Positions 15,211-18,902 of a stretch of DNA of 64,000 bases are shown piece by piece. The notes beneath the pieces were generated by a model. The model was given only the letters and a program-made list of their open reading frames with translations. It had not been told where the DNA came from and ran no database searches. Position 1 is the stretch's first letter. Each line of letters begins with the position of its first letter. The DNA is taken from contig NZ_CP014839.1 in NCBI RefSeq assembly GCF_001931675.1, positions 3,410,001-3,474,000 of the forward strand, written 5' to 3'. The DNA is from Pandoraea thiooxydans (GTDB taxonomy: Bacteria > Pseudomonadota > Gammaproteobacteria > Burkholderiales > Burkholderiaceae). Both the position numbers and the translations under genes were made by a program.

Positions 15211-15576
15211 TCAGACGGAAAACGACGAGCCGCAACCGCATGTCGTCGTGGCTTGCGGATTCTTGATAACGAACTGTGCTCCGTTGATATCTTCCTTGTA
15301 ATCGATTTCCGCGCCGACCAGGTATTGGTAGCTCATCGAATCGATCAGCAACTTCACACCGTTCTTGTCCATCACGGTGTCGTCTTCGTTGATATCCTCG
15401 TCAAAGGTAAAGCCATACTGGAAACCTGAGCAGCCGCCGCCTTGCACGAACACGCGCAGCTTCAGTCCAGGGTTACCTTCTTCGTCGATCAACTGTTTGA
15501 CCTTGTCGGCCGCGCTGTCAGTGAACAGCAGCGGAGCGGGCATGTCGGTTACAGCGGTCTCTGCCAGAGCACTCAT
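15211..15576 (-). CDS. erpA: Iron-sulfur cluster insertion protein ErpA
   Basis: ErpA is an A-type carrier that delivers Fe-S clusters to apoproteins such as isoprenoid enzymes. The 121-residue product has the three conserved cysteines: [11 protein letters not shown] around residue 50 and the C-terminal CGCG of [11 protein letters not shown]. The start is decided by the ribosome-binding site: on the minus strand GGAGA lies 6 bases before the ATG at 15576 ([11 protein letters not shown]), but only 1-2 bases before the in-frame ATG at 15582. The gene is monocistronic, with its own terminator, and lies downstream of rplM-rpsI on the same strand but behind their terminator. Confidence 0.93.
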
Positions 15577-15706
15577 CAGCATTCTCCAAAAAACGTTTCG
15601 ATCCTATTGTAGGCCTGATTCGAAGATCGTGCAGATACCCCTAAAGAATCAAGGCATTATCGGGATCGGCGGCAAACAGGCAGCCGCACCGCACCGTCGG
15701 GAAAAG

Positions 15707-15731
15707 AAAAAGCCGCACAAGGCGGCTTTTT
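15707..15731 (-). terminator. Terminator after rpsI (bidirectional form)
   Basis: AAAAAGCCGC (15707-15716), a 5-base loop, and GCGGCTTTTT (15722-15731) form a perfect stem with A and T runs on both sides. It lies 25 bp after the rpsI stop in the minus direction and ends the rplM-rpsI transcript. Confidence 0.85.
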
Positions 15732-15755
15732 CCAGGCGAACCAGCGCTCGCGCGA

Positions 15756-16148
15756 TTAACGCTTCGAGAACTGTTTGCGCCGGCGTGCTTTGTGCAGACC
15801 GACTTTCTTACGCTCGACTTCACGCGCATCGCGGGTCACCAGGCCGGCGCCGGACAATGCGGGCTTGAGCGTCGCGTCGTAATCGATCAACGCACGGGTG
15901 ATGCCGTGACGCACCGCGCCGGCTTGACCGGTCTCACCACCACCGGACACGTTGACTTTGATGTCGAACGTGGTGCCGTTGTTGGTCAGTTCGAGCGGCT
16001 GGCGCACGATCATCAGCGAGGTTTCGCGAGCGAAGTATTCGCTGATCGGCTTGCCGTTGACGACGATGTCGCCCTTGCCCGCCTTGATGAAGACGCGGGC
16101 CACGGCGCTTTTGCGGCGGCCGGTGCCGTAGTTCCAATTTCCAATCAT
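15756..16148 (-). CDS. rpsI: Small-subunit ribosomal protein S9
   Basis: The 130-residue protein is a full-length S9: it opens [20 protein letters not shown], has the RQPLELT and [15 protein letters not shown] segments in the middle, and ends with the very basic tail [11 protein letters not shown] that reaches into the decoding centre and touches P-site tRNA. AAGGGG stands 6 bases before the ATG. It follows rplM by 10 bp, the conserved bacterial pair, and the two are co-transcribed. Confidence 0.97.
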
Positions 16149-16158
16149 GGCTGGCCCC

Positions 16159-16587
16159 TTAGATCTCGAGCGACTTCGGTTGTTGCGCTTCGTGCGGATG
16201 ATTGCCGTCGGCGTAAACCTTCAGCTTCTTGATCATCGCATAGCCCAACGGACCTTTCGGCAGCATGCCCTTGACCGCTTTTTCCAGCGCACGGCCCGGG
16301 AAACGCTCTTGCATCTTGCCGAACGTCGTTTCGTAAATACCCCCCGGGTAGCCGGAGTGGCGATAGTATTTCTTGTCGGTGACCTTGGCGCCAGTCACTT
16401 TCAATTTCGCCGCGTTGACGATGATGATGTAATCGCCGGTATCAACGTGCGGGGTGAATTCAGGTTTATGCTTGCCGCGCAAACGGCGTGCCACTTCGCT
16501 GGCGACACGGCCGAGGACTTTGTCCGTCGCGTCAATCACGTACCATTCGCGCTTCACCTCATGCGGCTTTGCGGAAAACGTCTTCAT
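16159..16587 (-). CDS. rplM: Large-subunit ribosomal protein L13
   Basis: The 142-residue L13 starts [20 protein letters not shown], has [20 protein letters not shown] and the YRHSGYPGG segment, and ends [21 protein letters not shown]. It binds 23S rRNA early in 50S assembly. It is first in the rplM-rpsI operon. A near-consensus promoter (see 16690-16718) and a leader of about 97 nt precede it. Confidence 0.97.
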
Positions 16588-16684
16588 GATCGATCCAAAT
16601 TTGACCTGCCCAATCTTTTGTCTTCCTGCTTATTGGTTGCTGCAGGCTCTCCCAGTTCTTTTCCGCGGGCATTTCCGGAAAAGC
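16588..16684 (-). promoter_or_regulatory. rplM leader with 5' hairpin (possible autoregulatory leader)
   Basis: From the predicted start site (near 16683) to the rplM ATG the transcript has about 97 untranslated nucleotides. It opens with a perfect 7-bp stem, CTTTTCC against GGAAAAG (complement of 16658-16664 and 16677-16683), with a 12-base loop. Ribosomal-protein operons often carry such leaders for feedback by their own product; whether L13 or S9 binds here is inference. Confidence 0.35.
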
Positions 16685-16689
16685 CGTTG

Positions 16690-16718
16690 ATTATACAGAA
16701 ATTTGCTGCGACAAGGAA
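16690..16718 (-). promoter_or_regulatory. rplM-rpsI promoter
   Basis: On the minus strand a perfect TATAAT (complement of 16690-16695) stands 17 bp from TTCCTT (complement of 16713-16718), a weak -35. The distance to rplM leaves a leader of about 97 nt. Confidence 0.6.
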
Positions 16719-16769
16719 AACAAATGGGGCGCGGCGTGCAATTTCCGTCGGGACTTTGGAAACGGCCAT

Positions 16770-16800
16770 AAAAAAACCCGAACCGCTAAGGGTTCGGGTT
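16770..16800 (-). terminator. Terminator of the small RNA
   Basis: AACCCGAACC (16775-16784) and GGTTCGGGTT (16791-16800) form a perfect 10-bp stem with a 6-base loop. On the minus strand it is followed by seven U residues (A run at 16770-16776). It ends a transcript coming from the right, where no protein gene exists on this strand. Confidence 0.88.
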
Positions 16801-16863
16801 AAATCCACCAAAGGAGGAGGGTGGAGGAGACACCTGCCGATTGCGCTACTGCTGCAATCCATG
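16770..16863 (-). ncRNA. Small RNA candidate with loop-displayed anti-Shine-Dalgarno motif
   Basis: A free-standing minus-strand transcript of about 94 nt is predicted: promoter at 16870-16898, start near 16863, terminator at 16770-16800. Three hairpins are visible. The first (16839-16859) pairs GATTGC with GCAATC around a 9-base loop. The second (16804-16825) pairs TCCACC with GGTGGA around the 10-base loop CTCCTCCTTT. The third is the terminator. A second CTCCTCC (complement of 16823-16829) lies 10 nt before the one in the loop. Both are complementary to Shine-Dalgarno GGAGGAG. The long U tail and the exposed C/U-rich loop fit an Hfq-type trans-acting regulator like the alpha-proteobacterial anti-SD small RNAs. 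I cannot match it to a named Burkholderia sRNA. A short coding frame through it has no ribosome-binding site. Confidence 0.72.
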
Positions 16864-16869
16864 AAAACC

Positions 16870-16898
16870 ATTATAGGCACATCGTTTGTGCAATGCAA
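16870..16898 (-). promoter_or_regulatory. Promoter of the small RNA
   Basis: Minus-strand TTGCAT (complement of 16893-16898), a 17-bp spacer and TATAAT (complement of 16870-16875) form one of the best sigma-70 promoters in the window. Predicted start is near 16863. Confidence 0.75.
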
Positions 16899-16923
16899 GA
16901 AATTTACACTGCGAAACACAAAA

Positions 16924-16934
16924 TCACATTGTGA
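16924..16934. promoter_or_regulatory. Small palindrome upstream of the small-RNA promoter
   Basis: TCACA-T-TGTGA is a perfect 11-bp inverted repeat located 25 bp upstream of the small-RNA -35 box, in an AT-rich stretch (about 16900-17030) with no gene. It could be an activator or repressor site. The half-sites resemble those of CRP/FNR-type proteins but in inverted order, so no regulator is assigned. The rest of 16935-17189 shows nothing beyond a possible TACAAT -10 (17153-17158) for the OsmC gene. Confidence 0.3.
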
Positions 16935-17189
16935 AATTTTGACCGTGCCAAATAAATTTCCCAATGCATTCAAATACTTAGAAAGTAATTTCAGAATCCT
17001 CCACTTATTTTTAGAGTCGTCGCTCTAACCGTCTTGGTGGATCTCGCAGGGAATATGCCGATACCCGCACCTATTGCATCGCAGCATAATGACTGCCAAT
17101 CGTTGCGCTGGTGCGAGCCACGACACGTCCGACCAACATCACAAATCGTCTGTACAATTTTCATTTAAGCAGCAAAATCGGAGCAAGCA

Positions 17190-17612
17190 ATGGAATGCAA
17201 GGTAAGTTGGCTGGGGCAGGACGGCATGGGGTTCGTGGCCGAAACCGGCAGCGGCCATATCGTCGCGATGGATGGCGCGCCGGAGGGCGGCGGGCATAAC
17301 CTGGCCCCGCGTCCGATGGAAATGGTGCTGCTGGGTACGGGCGGCTGCACCGCCTACGACGTCGTCCTGATTCTGAAGAAGAGCCGCCAGGAGGTTCATG
17401 GCTGCAGCGTGGTGCTCAAGGCGGAGCGCGCGAGCGAGGATCCCAAGGTATTTACCAAGATCCATTTTCAATTTACCGTCACGGGCCGGAATCTGAATCC
17501 GGCGACGGTCGAGCGAGCGATCAAGCTGTCTCACGACAAATACTGCTCAGCTTCGATCATGCTGAGCAAGACGGCCGAATTGACTCACGGGTTCGATATC
17601 GTCGACGCCTGA
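17190..17612 (+). CDS. OsmC-family protein
   Basis: The 140-residue protein fits the OsmC/Ohr/YhfA fold. It has two cysteines in the family positions: LLGTGGCTAYDVVLIL (about residue 53) and the later KYCSASIML (about 117), the pair that in relatives reduces organic hydroperoxides. It lacks the long N-terminal segment of Ohr and is closest in length to YhfA-type proteins, whose substrate is unknown. GGAG stands 8 bases before the ATG. It is monocistronic and converges on rnpB. Confidence 0.88.
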   Translation: MECKVSWLGQDGMGFVAETGSGHIVAMDGAPEGGGHNLAPRPMEMVLLGTGGCTAYDVVLILKKSRQEVHGCSVVLKAERASEDPKVFTKIHFQFTVTGRNLNPATVERAIKLSHDKYCSASIMLSKTAELTHGFDIVDA

Positions 17613-17635
17613 GCCCGCGTCGCGCGAGCTTAAAG

Positions 17636-18048
<413 letters not shown>

Positions 18049-18053
18049 GGCGT

Positions 18054-18062
18054 AGTCTAGCA
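18054..18062 (-). promoter_or_regulatory. rnpB extended -10 promoter overlapping the upstream stop codon
   Basis: On the minus strand TGC-TAGACT (complement of 18054-18062) fits an extended -10, with start near 18047-18048, exactly where the RNase P RNA should begin. The TAG of TAGACT is also the stop codon of the DUF3025 gene. No good -35 is seen. Confidence 0.5.
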
Positions 18063-18902
18063 CGCAGCGACGGTGCGGCGCCGGCCGGTGCGGAACACCG
18101 GCGTATCGGCGTAGAAACCGGCATCCTCATTGGCCGGCCACCAGCCGGGAATCCCCAACACGGGAAGCGGAGCGAACATCGCGCTGTGCAACGGCGAGTC
18201 TCGCAGGCTCGCCGCCACCCGTCGGTCGAGCTCGCCGATGCGCTCTGCCGGGGCAAGTGAAAAGAACTCGCCGTCGACCGGCACCACCCAGGCATGCGCG
18301 GTAATCGATTTATAAGGCCGCACCAGCTTTTCCAATAATGCGTGGCCGAATACCAGCGCCTCGCAGCATTGCCCCCAGTCGGCGCGCCGGCCAAGCATTA
18401 GATCGTGCCAATCGAAGCGTCGCAACGTGTCGGCCATCGTCATATCGCTACAGGCAAACAACACGGCATTCTCGTCGAAGAGCGTTGCCGCATCGCGGGC
18501 CCGCCCGCGCTCGGCGCCGATGCCGGCGCGCGCGATCTCCGCTGCCTGACGGGCGTTCAGGCATGCTTTGATGCGCGGAAAAGTCAACCAAATCAAAGCG
18601 TTGAAAAAGTCATGCGGGTTGATTCGCGTGGGCACTTCACCGCTCGCGTGGATGTGCGCCTCATAAGCGCATCCGGCCGGCAAGCTCGCTTGCGGCACGA
18701 ATCGGATCGGCTTGCCGGCCGCGTTGCGCAGGCCGCGGCGGCCAGCCTCGAGATCAAGCGCCGCACGCCAATCGCCGGTGCCGGCGGCATATCGCCCGAC
18801 CGTCGCGGTGGTGGAAAACCAGGGGCGAGCCCAGTCGATGGCAGCCAGCGCGGCGCCGACATCCGTCTGATCGGGCAAAGACGTCAAGCCCGCAACTTCC
18901 AC
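18057..18902 (-). CDS. DUF3025 domain-containing protein
   Basis: This protein of about 281 residues belongs to the uncharacterised DUF3025 family. Recognisable features are [10 protein letters not shown] near the N-terminus, the central [20 protein letters not shown] with [13 protein letters not shown] (family core with His and Asn/Asp residues), NAVLFACSD and a C-terminal [20 protein letters not shown]. No signal peptide or membrane helix is seen. The start is uncertain: GTG at 18902, GTG at 18896 and TTG at 18887 (overlapping the pyrC stop as TTGA) are all possible; an ATG at 18977 would overlap pyrC by 94 bp. Overlap with pyrC implies co-transcription. Function unknown. Confidence 0.8.

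Follow-up and report, generated by a model that had tools for sequence, protein, structure and literature searches.

The window, the whole stretch of 64,000 nucleotides of Pandoraea DNA that was analysed, contains on its minus strand an RNA gene between a divergent osmC-like gene and rplM, the latter lying about 180 nt from the RNA on the same strand. The features of the locus are as follows.

17190–17612, plus strand: osmC-like gene, divergent neighbour (PF02566, E = 2.9 × 10−17)
17075–17083, no strand assigned: another PhaR-like core, TGCATCGCA, with two mismatches over the 17-mer, 107 nt upstream of the osmC start
16885–16901, minus strand: PhaR-like operator TTCTTGCATTGCACAAA, covering the −35 position; core TGCATTGCA at 16889–16897, one mismatch to YTKNTGCRNYGCANMAR
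16893–16898, minus strand: weak −35 hexamer TTGCAT, 3/6 matches to TTGACA
16870–16875, minus strand: −10 hexamer TATAAT, 13 bp past the operator core
16768–16863, minus strand: predicted primary sRNA transcript, about 94–96 nt, placed from the −10 element and the terminator, with a length near that of ncS27 (92 nt)
16839–16859, minus strand: 5′ leader hairpin GATTGC...GCAATC, from the fold, with both-side changes at 2/8 pairs in 15 relatives
16768–16832, minus strand: RF02278 double-hairpin core (cmscan, 68.1 bits, model positions 1–64 of 64)
16823–16831, minus strand: first anti-Shine–Dalgarno element GUCUCCUCC, with GTCTCCTC in 92/93 genomes
16804–16825, minus strand: hairpin 2, stem UCCACC/GGUGGA, from covariation in 32 family members and the fold of the core
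16810–16819, minus strand: loop CUCCUCCUUU, second anti-Shine–Dalgarno element, from sequence, fold and comparison with the 16S tail
16775–16800, minus strand: intrinsic terminator stem-loop of ten pairs, six of them G–C, with covariation
16159–16587, minus strand: rplM (ribosomal protein L13), downstream same-strand neighbour (PF00572, E = 3.5 × 10−46)

All of the elements named in the initial annotation are present on the minus strand: TTGCAT (16898–16893) and TATAAT (16875–16870) separated by 17 bp, CTCCTCC at 16829–16823, the loop CTCCTCCTTT at 16819–16810, a ten-pair terminator and a run of seven T's after its stem (16776–16770). The predicted start near 16863 and the predicted length of 94–96 nt agree with the transcript of about 94 nt proposed there. 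Its description of the promoter as near-consensus holds for the −10 hexamer, which is perfect, but not for TTGCAT, which matches TTGACA at only three of six positions. A plain σ70 promoter was rejected as a reading of the site, the promoter scan having listed none in 15500–18200.

An Rfam search, as the initial annotation had advised, matched positions 16768–16832 (minus strand) with RF02278 (`Betaproteobacteria toxic sRNA') over the full model length, scoring 68.1 bits where the cut-off is 50; this is the only Rfam family at gathering score for the sRNA. The double hairpin, the CU-rich unpaired elements and a second hairpin that is the terminator, all traits of RF02278, are present, and the osmC–rplM sRNA is a stand-alone member of this family, typical of what has been described. 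The statement that no host transcript explains the element is therefore superseded by the RF02278 match and the ncS27 position. The sRNA appears to be the counterpart of Burkholderia cenocepacia ncS27, a 92-nt RF02278 RNA of strain J2315 located between BCAL3348a and BCAL3349 (PMC4603805), with BCAL3348 listed among ribosomal protein genes (PMC5688073). An ncS27-type position between an osmC-side gene and rplM is found here, the neighbours being assigned by Pfam in the window and taken from the papers for ncS27. The two RNAs are further alike in length (92 versus about 94 nt), in their two CU-rich elements (PMC4603805, PMC5688073) and in a 5′ extension, which is removed by processing in ncS27 (PMC5688073). 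ncS27 is expressed, has a mapped 3′ end and is processed to a short form; its overexpression attenuates growth of B. cenocepacia, and the reverse complement of its CU-rich part has the opposite effect (PMC5688073). According to a review, ncS27 also affects amino-acid and carbohydrate use (PMC10987360), and toxicity on cloning in Escherichia coli is recorded for the family (PMC4603805). The family model is shared with ncS27 and its paralogues ncS03, ncS05 and ncS62, which appear as `toxic small RNAs', `double-hairpin RNAs' or bdhR1.

The genome (4,464,185 bases, one contig) contains four RF02278 matches, three of them over the cut-off, and the other copies do not adjoin rplM. One of these (L003, approximately 963049–963108) adjoins open reading frames that, by eye, we take to be an IS21-type transposase pair. 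Of 250 genomes of the order, 160 have an RF02278 match at E 0.001 and 94 have one over the cut-off; among near relatives the family is found in 34 of 41. Both RF02278 and PhaR are missing from a 1.2-Mb genome classified in the same genus.

In 38 of 80 named rplM loci, TCTCCTCC lies between osmC and rplM; in 21, osmC is there without the RNA motif (21/59 osmC–rplM regions), and the remaining 21 have no upstream osmC and no TCTCCTCC-type motif within 700 nt; the closest relatives are Pandoraea (96% identity). The osmC–rplM position of the RNA is, to judge by its recurrence, an old one. A common strand and a neighbourhood fixed in many relatives would also suit an rplM 5′ leader or attenuator in place of a trans-acting sRNA, and attenuated 5′ UTRs, one of them at BCAL3348, are listed in PMC5688073. 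However, a strong terminator stands ahead of rplM, a separate TATAAT-like element lies between this terminator and rplM, more than a third of the osmC–rplM regions lack the RNA and the other RF02278 copies of the genome are not beside rplM. A leader was rejected on the first three of these grounds and is regarded as very unlikely.

The fold of the 96-nt transcript of this stand-alone sRNA is better than expected by chance (z = −3.82, with none of 200 shuffles as good). Hairpin 2, which had been proposed to display the loop, is formed at about 36–46% in the full-length transcript, where the 5′ leader competes, and is absent from the minimum-energy fold; in the 65-nt core its pair probability is 0.85–0.98 and its loop is 99% unpaired, so that the proposed display applies better to the core than to the full-length RNA. 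The first anti-Shine–Dalgarno element, GUCUCCUCC, has a mean unpaired probability of 0.68 in the core and 0.46 at full length. Since the leader competes in the full-length RNA and not in the core, processing would expose the anti-Shine–Dalgarno loop, and the 16768–16832 core is probably the processed form of the transcript.

The RF02278 model leaves out the 5′ leader hairpin, which in 15 rplM-linked copies keeps 93% of its pairs and shows both-side changes at two of eight; over the whole structure these copies contain 15 both-side-changed cells, compared with a shuffled mean of 4.7 (0/500). Hairpin 2 is invariant in the 15 copies, so that the evidence for its covariation comes from the wider set of 32 family members, in which 10 of 13 consensus pairs are changed on both sides with the pair kept in at least one member. 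Conservation of the CU-rich loop and the stems in relatives, on which the initial annotation had made its reading depend, thus holds. The most conserved element is not the CU-rich loop motif, present in 86 of 93 genomes, but the 5′ GUCUCCUC (92/93). The loop CUCCUCCUUU and the 3′ tail of the 16S rRNA of the same genome share CCUCCUUU, and with two CU-rich elements the sRNA could, as first suggested, pair with ribosome-binding sites. Such elements would fit most Shine–Dalgarno sites and would therefore be poor discriminators of targets.

CU-rich anti-Shine–Dalgarno loops, together with a double hairpin, are also the basis of a likeness to the alphaproteobacterial cuckoo RNAs (CcsR1–4), whose architecture the initial annotation had recognized here. 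The comparison is apt for the possible mode of action, but not for membership: RF02278 alone reaches the gathering score, and the sRNA is a single gene with its own promoter, located between osmC and rplM with no adjacent ccaF1 (DUF1127) operon or cluster, whereas CcsR1–4 of Rhodobacter sphaeroides are clustered and arise by processing within an operon that includes ccaF1 (DUF1127) and has an RpoH-type promoter (PMC10253847). Membership was rejected on these grounds and is judged exceedingly improbable. The NmsR sRNAs of Neisseria meningitidis are similar in having two CU-rich unpaired stretches aimed at the ribosome-binding sites of metabolic genes (PMC5688073). Compared by description, they differ from the window sRNA in being a tandem pair in Neisseria.

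The promoter of the RF02278 sRNA carries a site resembling those of PhaR, a repressor of polyhydroxybutyrate (PHB) genes. The site at 16885–16901, TTCTTGCATTGCACAAA, has one mismatch in 17 positions to the Ralstonia eutropha PhaR consensus YTKNTGCRNYGCANMAR (PMC12849132). It also holds the TGC-N3-GCA triplets of the footprinted Herbaspirillum PhbF motif TG[N]TGC[N]3GCAA (PMC3206438) and has TTGCATTGCACA in common with the Sinorhizobium meliloti phaP2 site TTTTATTGCATTGCACACTGA, a further site in that species lying at the sRNA gene mmgR (PMC12542648). The TTGCAT hexamer forms the left portion of CTTGCATTGCACAA, a sequence strikingly conserved in relatives, and makes better sense within a putative PhaR operator than as a `−35' element. 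Between the operator core and the −10 hexamer there are 13 bp, and of the 38 relatives whose −10 could be scored, 30 have exactly this distance; a −10 with at least four of six matches lies at 10–14 bp from 33 of 52 core sites, compared with 9.9% of random anchors. As the box lies over the −35 position, a repressor bound there would block polymerase. The genome encodes PhaR (TIGR01848, 150.2 bits; PF07879 and PF05233), and the gene adjoins open reading frames that we take, by eye, to be phaC- and phaA-like.

Elsewhere in the genome, the stand-alone copy L001 has ATGGTGCGTTGCAGCAA upstream with one mismatch, and L003, the third stand-alone copy, has no core upstream. The second core in the window (17075–17083) recurs 99–118 nt before osmC in 9 of the 38 named osmC–sRNA–rplM regions, and osmC may belong to the same regulon as the sRNA. 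In the 64-kb window the core by itself shows no enrichment (12 found versus 16.3 expected). A genome-wide scan with the consensus at one mismatch gave 89 matches on each strand, where the reversed pattern gave 50; of six exact-match genome sites examined, five lie inside long open reading frames or are of unclear meaning, and the consensus-only list is uninformative.

A survey across Burkholderiales covered 93 genomes with matches over the cut-off, leaving out the genome analysed here, and took from each its best RF02278 match with 300 nt of upstream sequence; PhaR was assigned by TIGR01848 (172/250 genomes). Of 69 genomes with PhaR, 52 have the TGCRNYGCA core in the 150 nt preceding the RNA, and of 24 without PhaR none has it there (Fisher, 1.4 × 10−11), compared with 10/69 and 1/24 in the control stretch from −300 to −150; 200 shuffles gave a mean of 2.26 and a maximum of 6. 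Counted by genus, the core is present in 40/48 with PhaR versus 0/13 without, and by family at least one core is found in 17/19 versus 0/8. TGC-N3-GCA ranks first of all 3+3 dyads with gaps of 0–10 (40/48 genera; control stretch, 11). Among osmC–rplM regions, 33 of the 38 that contain the RNA motif also have the core, compared with 1 of the 21 that do not contain it. The core precedes rplM in 1 of 78 loci and osmC in 22 of 60; the latter count speaks against osmC as a clean control, these cores being partly the site of the sRNA itself or another one in the intergenic region that osmC and the sRNA share. Genomes lacking PhaR fall into eight families, six of them with no PhaR-containing member in the sample, and have another promoter motif in common; the co-occurrence of PhaR and the core is therefore partly phylogenetic, and the effective sample size is below what the Fisher value suggests. 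This other palindrome, approximately ATTAGATAATnCTAAT, lies some 40–60 nt before the RNA (for example in L207, L229 and L239), and dyads of the ATT–AGA type occur in 12/13 PhaR-less genera and, over the control stretch, in none.

Seven further RF02278 paralogues gave a core in four. Twelve named genomes, each with PhaR, yielded 30 copies; 16 of these, from 11 of the 12 genomes, have the core within 200 nt. The Bordetella sp. LUAb4 and Achromobacter copies have TTGCATCGCACAAA, and ATCTTGCATCGCACAAA lies 120 nt upstream of the LUAb4 copy; the Cupriavidus lacunae copy has no core, the C. gilardii core is at −152 and Janthinobacterium has none in the three copies fetched of ten matches. Unlike the window sRNA, the Burkholderia copies examined at the ncS27 position (L014/L290, of a B. 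cepacia-complex species, and L011, of a second Burkholderia) lack the core at the sRNA promoter, and ncS27 itself may therefore not be a PhaR target. Three of the four B. cenocepacia paralogues have a common upstream motif (PMC5688073, Fig. S3), which may be a PhaR-like box. In glucose-rich, amino-acid-poor medium ncS03, ncS05 and ncS27 rise 8.0-fold, 6.9-fold and 4.3-fold, respectively (PMC5688073); this response is as the PhaR model expects, although ncS27, perhaps siteless, also responds.

Phasin genes are classical PhaR targets and provided a positive control. The core lies within 400 nt upstream in 29 of the 30 phasin loci returned from 60 genomes, which shows that, by its placement, TGCRNYGCA is the PhaR box in this order. 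A second link to phasins comes from the fourth RF02278 match of the genome (L004, 1170686–1170743), which scores 30.2 bits, below the cut-off, and begins about 59 nt after the stop codon of a phasin gene (PF09361, 6.9 × 10−32) with two cores upstream. The same order of a phasin gene and an RF02278-like hairpin is found in two genomes of the genus and in Limnobacter (42.1 bits; phasin, 1.8 × 10−28), these phasin genes likewise being preceded by PhaR-like cores, and such hairpins 3′ of phasin genes are possibly 3′ UTR-derived sRNAs. TCTCCTC occurs within 300 nt after the stop in 6 of 30 phasin genes versus 9 of 600 random 300-nt stretches, mostly as a motif match alone. Weak RF02278 matches in three same-genus genomes (L301, L302 and L303) do not adjoin phasins, so that not every weak match is a phasin 3′ UTR.

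The same RF02278 anti-Shine–Dalgarno sRNA could instead have a TGCRNYGCA box that binds another regulator or is a variant promoter element. The box does cover the −35 position, and 17 of the 69 genomes with PhaR lack it, including 7/7 of one family (f22) and 2/2 of another (f48). Bordetella S17 is given only as having a TTGCAT −35 promoter (PMC11722255). A −35 requirement, however, leaves the right half GCA and the second osmC site unexplained, and the same core is upstream of nearly all phasin genes and of no sRNA in the 24 PhaR-less genomes; we consider this alternative rather unlikely.

Our preferred interpretation, which we hold to be likely, is that the locus encodes an RF02278 sRNA in the ncS27 position with a PhaR-repressed promoter, that PHB granules titrate PhaR and that the RNA covers Shine–Dalgarno sites. 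Binding of the operator by PhaR, as well as expression, processing and targets in the Pandoraea strain, are what we infer from sequence. Sequestration of PhaR on nascent granules relieves repression (PMC12849132). Without PHB, PhaR would occupy the palindrome over the −35 position and the promoter would be shut; under carbon excess, PHB granules would form and draw PhaR onto them, and the sRNA would be made together with phasin. The primary transcript would probably be shortened to the double-hairpin core, whose CU-rich elements, the 5′ GUCUCCUCC and the loop CUCCUCCUUU, would pair with the Shine–Dalgarno regions of uptake and catabolism mRNAs, lowering their translation. Repression directed at ribosome-binding sites is shown by a reporter for Bordetella S17 (PMC11722255) and is predicted for the Burkholderia RNAs (PMC5688073). 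Since PhaR can also activate, as for phaP3 (PMC12849132), the sign of its effect is not certain.

Bordetella S17 resembles the window sRNA in being RF02278-like with a TTGCAT −35 and a 17-bp spacer; it is processed by RNase E to a short form, represses targets by pairing with ribosome-binding sites and needs no activator in vitro, and its authors speculate on a repressor yet to be named (PMC11722255). PhaR is a candidate for that repressor. Unlike the window sRNA, S17 has a 190-nt primary transcript and is higher in the Bvg+ mode (PMC11722255). In S. meliloti, PhaR (AniA) represses the sRNA MmgR, which is linked to PHB, through a promoter site of the TGCRNYGCA type (PMC12542648, PMC8401924), a likeness to the control proposed for the window sRNA. 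By description, MmgR differs in belonging to the alphaproteobacterial αr8 family, in its length of 77 nt and in acting on phasin levels.

A broader proposal, favoured with less assurance, is that RF02278 sRNAs form an arm of the PhaR regulon in PHB-making Burkholderiales, the released sRNAs throttling uptake and catabolic translation, with PhaR-less lineages having brought the same RNA under another palindrome, ATTAGATAATnCTAAT. If so, the arm would include stand-alone genes and phasin 3′ UTR hairpins released on granule formation, storage-polymer status would be tied to a broad translational brake, and a betaproteobacterial parallel to the PhaR–MmgR pair of alphaproteobacteria would exist. 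PhaR would then be the sought regulator of the double-hairpin RNAs, besides being the candidate for S17, and would answer the question left open in PMC5688073 of what governs their accumulation. The PhaR–sRNA link also bears on riboregulation of PHB in Cupriavidus necator, which PMC8401924 calls undeciphered. The RNA family itself has already been described; control of the sRNA promoter by PhaR seems to be the new part, no earlier report of PhaR control over RF02278 sRNAs having been found in the open-access literature. The proposal is testable in strains with published PhaR systems.

The tRNA scan over the 64-kb window returned no tRNA. A bacterial class A RNase P RNA lies on the minus strand at 17636–18045 (300.4 bits).
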